Under the pieces are notes generated by a model. That model had not been told where the DNA came from. It saw nothing but the letters and a program-made list of their open reading frames with translations, and ran no database searches. Position numbers and translations under genes: made by a program. A DNA stretch of 22,867 nt from a virus, in IMG/VR virus record IMGVR_UViG_3300045999_001399, positions 1-22,867 of that record; one strand, 5' to 3'. Shown in pieces: positions 15,822 through 21,625 of the stretch. Each line of letters opens with the position of its first letter. Position 1 is the first letter of the stretch.

Positions 15822-16004
15822 TTAAACAGCAAGAGATTGAATGTATTTTTTGGCGTCTTTCAGGCGAAGGTAATAGCCGATGCATTTACCCTCGTGCATG
15901 ACCTCCCACTCGCTTGACAGAGTGTTGCAACGGAAACCGTAGGACTGGATGCGCACGATTGAGTACGCGCCCACTGTGAGAACTGTTTTTTTGTTGTCGA
16001 TCAT
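15822..16004 (-). CDS. Small protein of unknown function (60 aa)
   Basis: A 60-residue protein, start at 16004 in an ATGA overlap with the upstream gene and with AGAGGTG before it. It has a strand-rich body (VLTVGAYSIVRIQSYGFRCN, then WEVMHEGKCIGYYLRLKDAK) and a short final helix. Two cysteines (in FRCN and GKCIG) could pair or bind metal, though two alone are not a zinc site. Function unknown. Confidence 0.55.
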   Translation of the reverse strand: MIDNKKTVLTVGAYSIVRIQSYGFRCNTLSSEWEVMHEGKCIGYYLRLKDAKKYIQSLAV

Positions 16005-16300
16005 GCTGTCACCTCTTGCAAGAAAGAGCGAACTGTTGCCATGTCTTCAGCAGACACTGTCCACACATTAGCGTTGCCGCCGTCCAAGCACAAGCCGCCT
16101 TCTGTGCCGCCCCATCCGTCTGTGCCCAAGATTGTGGACACATAGTAGCGAGACACGAACTGACCGAACTCAGTGTGTGGGTAACGAGCGTCATAGAACT
16201 CTACGAGGGGTCTGTCGCTGTCATGAGTCAAGCAGAAGTCACGACCGTACTTGTCGCCTTGGTTGACTACGCGAACATTGAATTTTGAAACTGTGATCAT
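16001..16300 (-). CDS. Unknown protein, first gene after the 16.3-kb promoter cassette (99 aa)
   Basis: The start at 16300 (MITVSKFNVRVVNQGDKYGR) is preferred over an ATG at 16351, because AAGGAAATC precedes it and the longer version would run back through the leader hairpin. The 99-residue product is acidic and aromatic, with a Gly-rich stretch GTDGWGGTEGGLCLDGGNAN (about 62-81) and a final helix (EDMATVRSFLQEV). No known family. It is the first gene of its transcription unit, directly under the duplicated promoter/leader cassette. Confidence 0.6.
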   Translation of the reverse strand: MITVSKFNVRVVNQGDKYGRDFCLTHDSDRPLVEFYDARYPHTEFGQFVSRYYVSTILGTDGWGGTEGGLCLDGGNANVWTVSAEDMATVRSFLQEVTA

Positions 16301-16310
16301 TTTGATTTCC

Positions 16311-16364
16311 TTCAAGTAACCTGCTGTATTGCAGTGAACGCATCTTAACATGAAATTAAAGCGG
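16311..16364 (-). promoter_or_regulatory. Promoter/leader cassette, copy 1
   Basis: Read on the minus strand: CCGCTTTAATTTCATGTTAA (TTAA boxes at 16356-16359 and 16345-16348, 11 bp apart), extended -10 TGTTAAGAT (TAAGAT at 16342-16347), seven nucleotides GCGTTCA, then the hairpin CTGC-AATACA-GCAG (16321-16334), then GGTTACTTGAA and the ribosome site. About 54 bp match copy 2 at 17328-17380 with few differences. The predicted transcript would start at or just before the hairpin. No good -35 box is visible; an extended -10 does not need one. Confidence 0.6.
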
Positions 16365-16365
16365 A

Positions 16366-16689
16366 TCAGACATAGGGACTTTCCCTAATATCATTAACAA
16401 CGGTTGAAATAATCTTTTTGGCGTCCGCAAAATACTCGGTGTAGGACGGCATCTTCTGTGCAATCTGCACTCCGATGTCAGAACTTCTGACGGGTTCGAA
16501 CTTCCAGATCTGCGAGGGTGTGCCGCGCTTCTTTTCGCTTTGCGCCCAGCCCTCTTTGGTGACCCGTAGGAAGCCAACGGTCTTGCCATCAACCTGCACC
16601 CTGCGCTGATTGCCGCCGGGGAACTGACCCTTGTCACCTATCGTGTGGTCAGTGTCAAACCAGTATGCTTGATATTGAATTTTTTTCAT
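16366..16689 (-). CDS. Small phage protein of unknown function (107 aa)
   Basis: A 107-residue basic protein with an AGGAAAC ribosome site. It starts MKKIQYQAYWFDTDHTIGDK, a strand-like, aromatic opening, continues RRVQVDGKTVGFLRVTKEGW and KRGTPSQIWKFEPV, and ends in a helix (SYTEYFADAKKIISTVVNDI). The arrangement suggests a small alpha/beta fold with basic surface, but no family is recognised. Its stop lies within the inverted repeat that precedes promoter cassette copy 1. Confidence 0.58.
   Translation of the reverse strand: MKKIQYQAYWFDTDHTIGDKGQFPGGNQRRVQVDGKTVGFLRVTKEGWAQSEKKRGTPSQIWKFEPVRSSDIGVQIAQKMPSYTEYFADAKKIISTVVNDIRESPYV
16371..16388. repeat. Inverted repeat at the end of the upstream gene (cassette copy 1)
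   Basis: ATAGGGAC-TTT-CCCTAAT surrounds the last codons of the 107-aa gene, with arms of 5-6 bp around a short loop. A similar sequence, TTAGGAC-AAA-CCCTAA (17408-17423), overlaps the stop of the gene upstream of copy 2. No T-run follows, so a classical terminator is doubtful. Low confidence in function. Confidence 0.4.
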
Positions 16690-16702
16690 GATGTTTCCTG
16701 AT

Positions 16703-16718
16703 GGGGGCCGAAGCCCCC
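16703..16718 (-). other. Very stable intergenic RNA hairpin with UUCG loop
   Basis: On the minus strand the 35-nt gap between the 88-aa and 107-aa genes contains GGGGGC-TTCG-GCCCCC, a six-pair GC stem closed by the exceptionally stable C(UUCG)G tetraloop. On the sense side it is not followed by a T-run, so an intrinsic terminator in the minus direction is unlikely; on the plus side it is followed by TTTGGTTT. An mRNA processing, stability or partial-attenuation role fits better. The downstream gene has its ribosome site (AGGAAAC) 5 nt past the hairpin. Confidence 0.6.
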
Positions 16719-16724
16719 TTTGGT

Positions 16725-16991
16725 TTAACTGTACTTCTTGATGAAGGCGTTCAACATGCGCACTTCGCTACGTGCCCACTTCTGTTGCTCTGGGCCGTTC
16801 TCACCGCGCAGATCTTCAGCGTTCCAATGAGTCTCGTTTGGATCTGTAAACAAAGACAAAACGTGCCGTGCTTCATGCAAGATCTCAGCGTCTGTGTAGT
16901 CTTCAATTTTCTTTTTGTCATCAGTAGAAATGTTATCCAAGTCATAGGCTAACTCACTGATTGCCATTGCAGATTTAATGATTGCTCTCAT
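16725..16991 (-). CDS. Small acidic protein of unknown function (88 aa)
   Basis: An 88-residue helical, acidic protein: MRAIIKSAMAISELAYDLDN, then TDDKKKIEDYTDAEILHEAR, and a tail with HWNAEDLRGENGPEQQKWAR. It starts with AAGGGGGC in the ribosome position. No recognised domain and no membrane segment. It is the second gene of the unit driven from cassette copy 2. Confidence 0.58.
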   Translation of the reverse strand: MRAIIKSAMAISELAYDLDNISTDDKKKIEDYTDAEILHEARHVLSLFTDPNETHWNAEDLRGENGPEQQKWARSEVRMLNAFIKKYS

Positions 16992-17000
16992 GGCGCCCCC

Positions 17001-17315
17001 TTAAGCTGTTGCTGAAACTTTGATAACGGCGATGGAGTCGCCACGGAACTGCTCTGCTTGCTCGGCAGTGATACCGAAATGAGCCATCAATGCTTCCATG
17101 TCGATGGAGCCTTTACGGTTCTCGATGGTGACGCGAACGCCGTACTTCTCACCGCGGTGCTTGCCTTCACCGTAGCTGTTAGCAATTTCGTCTTTGAGGG
17201 ATTTGACTTGAGCGGTCAAAGCTTTTTGCTGGCGATCCAACACTGAGAGTTGGTCAATGGGGTTTAGCAGTGATTCGACTGTTGCGACTGCTTGGATCTC
17301 TGTTGCTGTTGTCAT
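17001..17315 (-). CDS. Helical protein, first gene of the 17.3-kb unit (104 aa)
   Basis: A 104-residue protein whose middle is a coiled-coil-like helix (LNPIDQLSVLDRQQKALTAQ, then VKSLKDEIANSYGEGKHRGE) followed by a strand GVRVTIENRKGSIDMEALMA and a second helix. A coiled coil followed by a small alpha/beta end recalls short accessory proteins of phage nuclease or annealing systems, but I do not recognise it. Strong AAAAGGA ribosome site. It is directly under promoter cassette copy 2, so it is expected to be well expressed and early. Confidence 0.6.
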   Translation of the reverse strand: MTTATEIQAVATVESLLNPIDQLSVLDRQQKALTAQVKSLKDEIANSYGEGKHRGEKYGVRVTIENRKGSIDMEALMAHFGITAEQAEQFRGDSIAVIKVSATA

Positions 17316-17327
17316 GATGACTTCCTT

Positions 17328-17380
17328 TTCAAGTAACCTGCTTATTGCAGTGACGCTATCTTAACATCAAGTTAAAACGG
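17328..17380 (-). promoter_or_regulatory. Promoter/leader cassette, copy 2
   Basis: Read on the minus strand: CCGTTTTAACTTGATGTTAA (TTAA boxes at 17372-17375 and 17361-17364, 11 bp apart), extended -10 TGTTAAGAT (TAAGAT at 17358-17363), seven nucleotides AGCGTCA, hairpin CTGC-AATAA-GCAG (17338-17350), then GGTTACTTGAA as in copy 1. Upstream, around 17386-17408, lies an AT-rich stretch that could act as an UP element. The near-identity with copy 1 suggests duplication of a regulatory cassette. Confidence 0.62.
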
Positions 17381-19307: not shown

Positions 19308-19522
19308 GCTTGTCCCCTTGCTCGGATGGTTTCTCCAATCATTCTTGGTGTCCAACCACAATGGTTATCACACACCTTTGCACACGCCTCACGCTCATGC
19401 TGTGCTACTAGCTTGGCAAAGGCTTCAATATTGAACGGGCTACAACGCATACAGTCATCCCATGTATTTCCTTTGTCCCATCCACAACTTTCAGCCATCT
19501 CAATGATTTCATCTTGTGTCAT
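19304..19522 (-). CDS. EREACA-family small protein, copy (72 aa)
   Basis: A 72-residue protein, start at 19522 (MTQDEIIEMAESCGWDKGNT) with AAGGGGA before it. It ends with HEREACAKVCDNHCGWTPRM and IRARGQA. It shares the pattern VAQHEREACA...IRARG with the next gene upstream (19509-19790), and both contain LVAQH near the middle. Five cysteines lie in MTQ...CDNHCGW; metal binding is possible. These neighbours are probably diverged copies from a tandem duplication. Confidence 0.58.
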   Translation of the reverse strand: MTQDEIIEMAESCGWDKGNTWDDCMRCSPFNIEAFAKLVAQHEREACAKVCDNHCGWTPRMIGETIRARGQA

Positions 19523-19790
19523 GATTTCCCCTTGCTCGGATAGCTTCGGCACATTCATATGCAGTACCGTCATCTTCCCAAAGATCATCACACACTACTG
19601 CACACGCCTCACGCTCGGCTAAACGCCCTGCTTCCACGCCTTCTTGGAATGAAATGAACTTGCTTGGATCAATGTTGGCTAGCGTATGCTGTGCCACTAA
19701 GTTGGCGAAACGAACTAGACCATCCTCATCAAACTTCAAACCATGGATGGTGTGTTCTATCGCCAAGCGAATGATGTCTTCGTGTTTCAT
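19509..19790 (-). CDS. EREACA-family small protein, second copy (93 aa)
   Basis: A 93-residue protein that opens MKHEDIIRLAIEHTIHGLKF, then VRFANLVAQHTLANIDPSKF, and ends AEREACAVVCDDLWEDDGTA then IRARG. At DNA level a 17-base stretch, gcacacgcctcacgctc on the plus strand, is identical in both copies (here and near 19380). Compared with its neighbour it has an insertion of about 20 residues before EREACA. Ribosome site GAGGAAA. Unknown function. Confidence 0.6.
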   Translation of the reverse strand: MKHEDIIRLAIEHTIHGLKFDEDGLVRFANLVAQHTLANIDPSKFISFQEGVEAGRLAEREACAVVCDDLWEDDGTAYECAEAIRARGNHDTR

Positions 19791-21063: not shown

Positions 21064-21270
21064 TTACACGAAAAACAGATCTGGACGCAAGTCTTTTCTT
21101 GTGACCAGCCCTTGTGTTGCTTTTTCAATCTTGACCGCCAGTGCGGCAGACGCAGTTCTACGCTCGTGGATGAGCAGTGACATCCATGTCAGGCTGATGC
21201 CCAGATACTCAGCCATCTCACCTCTTGCGCCCAACGGCTCCGTCTCAAAATACTCTTGCAATGTCATCAT
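21064..21270 (-). CDS. Cro-like/YdaS-type helix-turn-helix repressor (68 aa)
   Basis: A DNA-binding regulator of the Cro superfamily, YdaS type: residues 14-38 are the helix-turn-helix (GARGEMAEYLGISLTWMSLL, then IHERRTASAALAVKIEKATQ), and it ends VTRKDLRPDLFFV, the typical tail of this family. The start at 21270 (MMTLQEYFETEP) has AAGGA before it; an upstream ATG at 21297 would lie inside the putative operator and is rejected. It is divergently placed from the plus-strand operon, so it probably represses one or both early promoters. Its candidate operators (TTAA pairs) recur elsewhere in the window. No CI-type partner was seen. Confidence 0.8.
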   Translation of the reverse strand: MMTLQEYFETEPLGARGEMAEYLGISLTWMSLLIHERRTASAALAVKIEKATQGLVTRKDLRPDLFFV

Positions 21271-21406
21271 TGTTTTTCCTTGGCGGCAAGTATACATTAA
21301 CTTTGAATTAAAAGAAACCCTTGAATTTAGTCAAGAATGTATTGCAAGGCTTTTTAATATCGTGTTAAGATTCGCTCACGCCGATACGGCGGTTAAGGAG
21401 AATCAA
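21271..21406. promoter_or_regulatory. Divergent promoter/operator region
   Basis: This 136-bp gap separates the Cro-like gene (minus) from the plus operon. Left promoter: -10-like TATACT on the minus strand, with TTAA boxes at 21297-21300 and 21308-21311 (11 bp apart). Centre: palindrome CTTGAATTTAGTCAAG (21320-21335). Right promoter: TTGCAA (21342-21347), 18 nt, extended -10 TGTTAAGAT (TAAGAT 21366-21371), with TTAA boxes at 21354-21357 and 21365-21368. The hairpin CGCCG-ATA-CGGCG (21379-21391) lies 7 nt after TAAGAT. Two promoters with a shared operator type fit autoregulation by the Cro-like protein. Confidence 0.65.
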
Positions 21407-21625
21407 ATGGAAAAACACCTTCCCTACACGACCAAGTCTGGTCTTCGCATTGGCTGTATGTACAGCCCTCCCCCACAGAACCACATGAGCGCTGATGCTG
21501 AACGCATCCAGATGGCTCTGCTTGGCATTGAGCCTGAGTTCTCAGAGCGTCGAGTGGTTGGCTTCATTGCGTACATCATCTTCTTGATGGCGCTGTTCAC
21601 AATTCTTTTTGCATTGGAGCTGTGA
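21407..21625 (+). CDS. Small membrane protein, first gene of plus operon (72 aa)
   Basis: The start is at 21407 (MEKHLPYTTKSGLRIGCMYS) because TAAGGAG precedes it by 6 nt; the open frame extends upstream into the regulatory region but without support. Residues 1-45 are soluble. Residues about 50-70 are one membrane segment (VVGFIAYIIFLMALFTILFA) with ERR before it, suggesting the N-terminus is cytoplasmic. It ends in a TGATG overlap with the next gene. As first gene under a strong-looking promoter, it may act early on the host membrane; function unknown. Confidence 0.65.
   Translation: MEKHLPYTTKSGLRIGCMYSPPPQNHMSADAERIQMALLGIEPEFSERRVVGFIAYIIFLMALFTILFALEL

Follow-up and report, generated by a model that had tools for sequence, protein, structure and literature searches.

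The phage DNA analyzed here (the window: a stretch of 22,867 nt, positions 1 to 22,867 of IMG/VR record IMGVR_UViG_3300045999_001399) carries three short cassettes in which an extended −10 promoter overlaps a palindromic box and is followed, at a fixed distance, by a small hairpin. Comparison with the sequences of related phages established that the hairpin structure and its locked position are kept, that compensatory change acts at the RNA level, and that the cassette is dispersed and associated with a repressor gene. The best explanation, which we hold to be reasonably probable, is a repressor-controlled extended −10 promoter from which transcription would start one base ahead of the hairpin, so that the 5′-terminal structure would slow 5′-end-dependent decay of the mRNA.

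The window is a phage fragment encoding a terminase, a portal protein, a DUF1376-type replication protein, RusA and a YdaS/Cro-like regulator, and the best match of its terminase was MW202545 (deposited as Siphoviridae sp.; 66% identity). A search of the window with the pattern TTAA-N5-TG-TTAAGAT-N4-TCAC returned three sites only, even when three mismatches were permitted: 16359–16334 and 17375–17350 on the minus strand and 21354–21379 on the plus strand. The number expected from shuffled sequences was 0.08, and none of 100 shuffles reached three. The two cassettes of approximately 54 bp (16311–16364 and 17328–17380, minus strand) and the diverged copy (21354–21391, plus strand) reported in a preliminary description of this DNA proved correct at every base, and in all three, 7 nt that end in CA separate the −10 TAAGAT from the stem. 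Cassette A (minus strand) comprises a putative operator, TTAATTTCATGTTAA (16345–16359), which overlaps the promoter, is enriched as a pattern and is conserved in relatives; an extended −10, TGTTAAGAT (16342–16350), with the presumptive +1, from the purine/pyrimidine rule, at the A at 16335; and the hairpin CTGC-AATACA-GCAG (16321–16334; covariance model E = 0.00013), which would begin at +2. Cassette B, on the same strand, has the putative operator TTAACTTGATGTTAA (17361–17375), also identified by pattern enrichment, the same extended −10 (17358–17366; presumptive +1 A at 17351) and the hairpin CTGC-AATAA-GCAG (17338–17350). In cassette C (plus strand), the putative operator TTAATATCGTGTTAA (21354–21368), for which pattern enrichment and relatives both speak, stands at a divergent early promoter with the extended −10 at 21363–21371, the presumptive +1 A at 21378 and the hairpin CGCC-GATAC-GGCG, or CGCCG-ATA-CGGCG, at 21379–21391. 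The hairpins of cassettes B and C were recognized from the sequence, the leader fold and the covariance model.

Cassettes A and B lie within a minus-strand block, each ahead of one of two small genes that were unrelated in protein comparison: a 99-aa gene (16001–16300; no family was found for the translation of 16001–16303) and a 104-aa gene (17001–17315). Cassette C forms the promoter that diverges from the YdaS/Cro-like regulator; the divergent, early operon opens with a 72-aa gene (21407–21625, plus strand; no family found). Between A/B and C, two of the four stem pairs were changed on both sides (T-A to G-C and G-C to C-G), in agreement with the paired substitutions first claimed between the left copies and the right one. 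The leader of each window cassette has a single conserved stem, short at 4 bp, and the fold z-scores of the leaders were only −0.8 to −1.7. The sequence GGTTAYTTGAAAG is common to the cassettes 3′ of the hairpin; the 3′ arm is followed by GGTTACTTG or GGTTAAGG, with no U-tract, and no intrinsic terminator was called at the three hairpins, and we rejected a terminator reading on both counts. Neither the window nor seven relatives contained an Rfam family, cassette B with its cargo gene showed no DNA similarity to phage isolates, and the cassette pattern including the hairpin start had no match among genome contigs. Elsewhere in the window, repeated stretches in adjoining minus-strand small ORFs (19359–19420 and 19579–19709) suggest a duplicated protein segment.

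Five copies of the box TTAA-N7-TTAA stand in the window, compared with 0.2 expected: in the three cassettes, at the regulator's own promoter (21297–21311) and in a coding region (2811–2825). The last of these lies inside a minus-strand ORF (2785–2973), has equivalents such as TTAACAAAATGTTAA in many relatives, and is possibly an internal operator or a codon coincidence. The preliminary description had overlooked both the palindromic nature of the box (TTAAC-N5-GTTAA in cassette B) and the site adjoining the regulator gene, TTAACTTTGAATTAA, which the pattern and the relatives mark as a putative operator without a hairpin and which serves as an internal control. The regulator gene (21064–21270, minus strand; ATG at 21270, further in-frame starts being possible upstream) matched PF15943 (E = 1.9e-12; 47.2 bits against a cut-off of 30). 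A repressor gene of this family was present in 8/8 related contigs, the window included, and the pair of boxes beside it was mostly kept. YdaS, the Cro analogue of lambdoid prophage CP-933P, binds operators that overlap its divergent promoters and, together with PaaR2, regulates one further promoter (PMC8630535). Judging from enrichment and placement, the palindromic box is likely the operator of the phage's own YdaS/Cro-like repressor, a reading that the preliminary description did not offer. The arrangement resembles the CP-933P immunity region in the YdaS-family regulator at divergent promoters, the palindromic operators over promoters and a further regulated promoter besides the divergent pair (PMC8630535), but no CI-like partner was identified in this fragment, and here hairpin promoters at other places in the genome incorporate putative operators. 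No such hairpin was found at the repressor's own promoter region or in several YdaS-type lineages with other divergent genes; thus, the operator does not require the hairpin.

An exact pattern scan of IMG/VR yielded 50 further loci, most with the same layout and differing stems (CTGC, CGCC, CGCT), and protein searches with the regulator and three diverged homologues added about 200 more, some of them overlapping. In 142 distinct divergent regions the best extended −10 was picked blind to hairpins; 115 had one, this anchor rule having dropped promoters whose −10 was weak or not extended, and these formed 62 clusters at 85% identity. In 42 of the 62 promoter clusters beside a YdaS/Cro-like repressor gene, which share descent and do not count as independent events, a perfect 4-bp stem with a loop of 3–7 began exactly 7 nt after the −10. 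Offsets 0–6 and 10–25 gave 0–3 stems each, and the stems at offsets 8 (31) and 9 (10) were mostly inner portions of longer ones; in a few relatives the stem starts 8 nt after the −10. The counts rose at offsets 26–30, which fits a second stem-loop found in lineages with the −10 TATAGT. When the scan took in every one of the 4007 distinct extended −10 sites of all loci, most of which are not promoters, 263 stems stood at offset 7 compared with about 120 elsewhere. With G·U pairs counted, 46 clusters had a stem; the base preceding it was A (36), G (9) or C (1), and the base before that was T (26) or C (20), so that a purine after a pyrimidine precedes the stem in 45 of 46; the sole C belongs to locus L278, whose stem begins one base later. 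A purine (+1) preceded by a pyrimidine (−1) is the common start of bacterial transcription, and its spacing from the −10 here is the usual one. From the −10-to-stem distance and the pyrimidine–purine rule, we infer that the transcript probably begins one base before the stem, which would place the stem at +2 and leave a single unpaired 5′ base.

When 3′ arms were swapped between clusters, 6.3 of 62 still fitted on average, as against 42 before the swap (maximum 15 in 1000 shuffles). Because loop length was fitted, pairing counts alone favor structure, and the arm swap, which uses the same fitting, is the control. In two alignments (A5 and A3; A4 was set aside, two loop-6 rows having been misaligned by MAFFT), 97% and 100% of cells were paired, with double changes in 4/5 and 3/4 pairs; the observed covariation was reached by none of 500 shuffles and exceeded all slid controls. 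Stem and loop sequences and loop length varied, even among copies in one genome. Single-pair departures from Watson–Crick pairing in the hairpin lineages comprised five G·U and no A·C, indicating that the RNA strand is the conserved form. The check by covariance model and compensatory change in related phages, proposed when the cassettes were first noticed, came out strongly positive. Of the first interpretation, a promoter with a presumptive 5′-terminal hairpin, the paired stem changes and a likely anti-decay role are supported.

A covariance model built from 16 sequences was run over 391 kb and gave 23 matches with E<0.01, the three copies of the window among them; training members match by construction, and cassette A was outside the training set. 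Each of eight related contigs, the window included, carried one to four cassettes. In a rule-based scan, the downstream genes were unlike each other both between and within genomes, and MW202545 carries two cassettes, the second of which differs in its stem (CCAC/GTGG). At L145–L146 (contig G020, ~35584–35893) and L069, an antisense cassette (stem CGCA/TGCG) immediately precedes the portal gene in the structural operon, and the G020 copy is followed by an 83-aa ORF; the cassette was absent from 15 other distinct junctions.

The resemblance to the PeSLs of T4-type phages that was noted at the outset holds in part. PeSLs (promoter-early stem-loops; Arbiol 2010, Comeau 2014) are reportedly promoter–terminator composites, as a paper title listed in PMC5931544 has it. 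Like them, the cassettes are small, dispersed units of an early-type promoter and a stem-loop before small, variable genes, with several copies ahead of different genes in addition to the antisense insertion before the portal gene. Close kinship was not supported: the window phage is not T4-type, and whereas PeSL stem-loops are terminators, these hairpins lack a U-tract, were not called as terminators, would begin at +2 and come with a putative operator. No description of the cassette was found in the literature searched, coverage of which was partial, so that its absence is not proved.

We propose that the palindrome, at −24 to −10, would be bound by the YdaS/Cro-like repressor, and that when the promoter fires the mRNA would be born as 5′-pppA followed by CTGC...GCAG or CGCC...GGCG, that is, with a 5′-terminal hairpin and one unpaired base. 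Such an end would hinder pyrophosphate removal by RppH and slow 5′-end-dependent decay by RNase E, and the mRNA of early or small genes would last longer. Stabilizing 5′-terminal stem-loops are said to occur in ompA and papA (Emory 1992 and Bricker 1999, listed in PMC3997798). For RppH to act, two or more 5′ nucleotides must be unpaired, and three or more are preferred (PMC10667835); at the 5′ stem of DrrS one added nucleotide had a limited effect, while two or more were strongly destabilizing (PMC5360333). The RppH and RNase E/G families were present in four Burkholderiales/betaproteobacterial MAGs carrying relatives of the regulator. Against end protection, direct entry of RNase E could bypass a protected 5′ end (PMC3997798). 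The short stems of the window, the few relatives whose stem starts at 8 nt and the YdaS-type lineages in which the hairpin is missing also count against it. The cassettes share with the ompA and papA stem-loops and that of DrrS (PMC5360333) structure over sequence, compensatory change that keeps pairing and an expected block of RppH and RNase E, and their presumptive start would put the stem, as there, 0–1 nt from the 5′ end; they differ in being a multi-copy phage promoter element under putative repressor control and conserved across a large group.

A locked position and a free sequence speak for end protection more than for sequence-specific binding, antitermination or translation control. 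The stem-loop could be a translational element (a protein-binding site, a ribosome standby site or a spacer) whose nearness to +1 is incidental, and it does lie just ahead of the ribosome-binding region, with the conserved GGTTAYTTGAAAG following it. We consider this unlikely, as such an element has no need of a stem exactly at +2, loop sequence is not conserved across lineages, and the predicted folds leave the ribosome site unsequestered by the 5′ stem. That the hairpin acts on RNA polymerase in the manner of HK022 putL, as nascent 5′ RNA resisting pausing or termination in early operons, appears quite unlikely. In both cases a structured RNA lies close to the 5′ end of early phage transcripts; putL, with its two stem-loops, is found a short way downstream of PL (PMC9378689), and the TATAGT relatives carry a second stem-loop a few nucleotides on; however, put RNA spans about 70 nt and its two long stem-loops act on the polymerase, whereas the window leaders have one variable 4-bp stem, and the freedom of stem and loop sequence, even within one genome, misfits sequence-specific contacts. 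A DNA site for a dimeric protein would account for a palindrome at a fixed distance from the promoter, but we regard it as very improbable, since arms and loop length differ between copies of one genome and the G·U and A·C counts point to RNA. Equally remote is an effect on initiation or promoter escape (initial transcribed sequence, scrunching) instead of RNA fate: phasing to the −10 is exact, but the initially transcribed bases vary while pairing alone is kept, and the 3′ arm ends near +14, before an RNA so short leaves the polymerase.

A small hairpin built into the start of the putatively repressor-controlled messages of a large group of freshwater phages probably protects them from the decay enzymes of the host. 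More tentatively, and with rather less than even confidence, we suggest that a widespread phage group uses a sequence-independent, RppH-proof 5′ hairpin in its repressor-controlled promoters, spread as a promoter–operator–cap cassette that gives new genes both control and mRNA stability. Protection of bacterial mRNA 5′ ends is known mainly from single genes; the comparative evidence here is for selection that holds a stem at the presumptive +2 in tens of diverged phage promoters even as its sequence drifts. Nature thus offers a test of the RppH rule that two or more 5′ bases be unpaired, and the cassettes suggest a way in which some 40 bp may tie together repression, early expression and mRNA stability in a phage.

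Several other structured elements were observed near these promoters. In the TATAGT lineages (divergent leaders of L234–L282), the second stem-loop, GTCC-TACG-GGAC and variants, stands before the start codon and in some has GGAG in its loop. Between the YdaS-like regulator gene and its promoter, an inverted repeat with T-arm-like motifs (CCAACACGGCTGGGGACTG ... CAGTCCCCATGCGTGTTGG and variants) was found in L166, L171, L176, L184, L190, L226, L227, L287, L291, L293 and L296, and GGTACTCGCTACGTCTG ... CAGCATCCGCTTTCCCC at the same place in L234, L236, L242, L255, L256, L272, L273 and L277; ARAGORN and Rfam found nothing in the tested members of either set. In L298, a tRNA-Met lies between the YdaS-like gene and its promoter.
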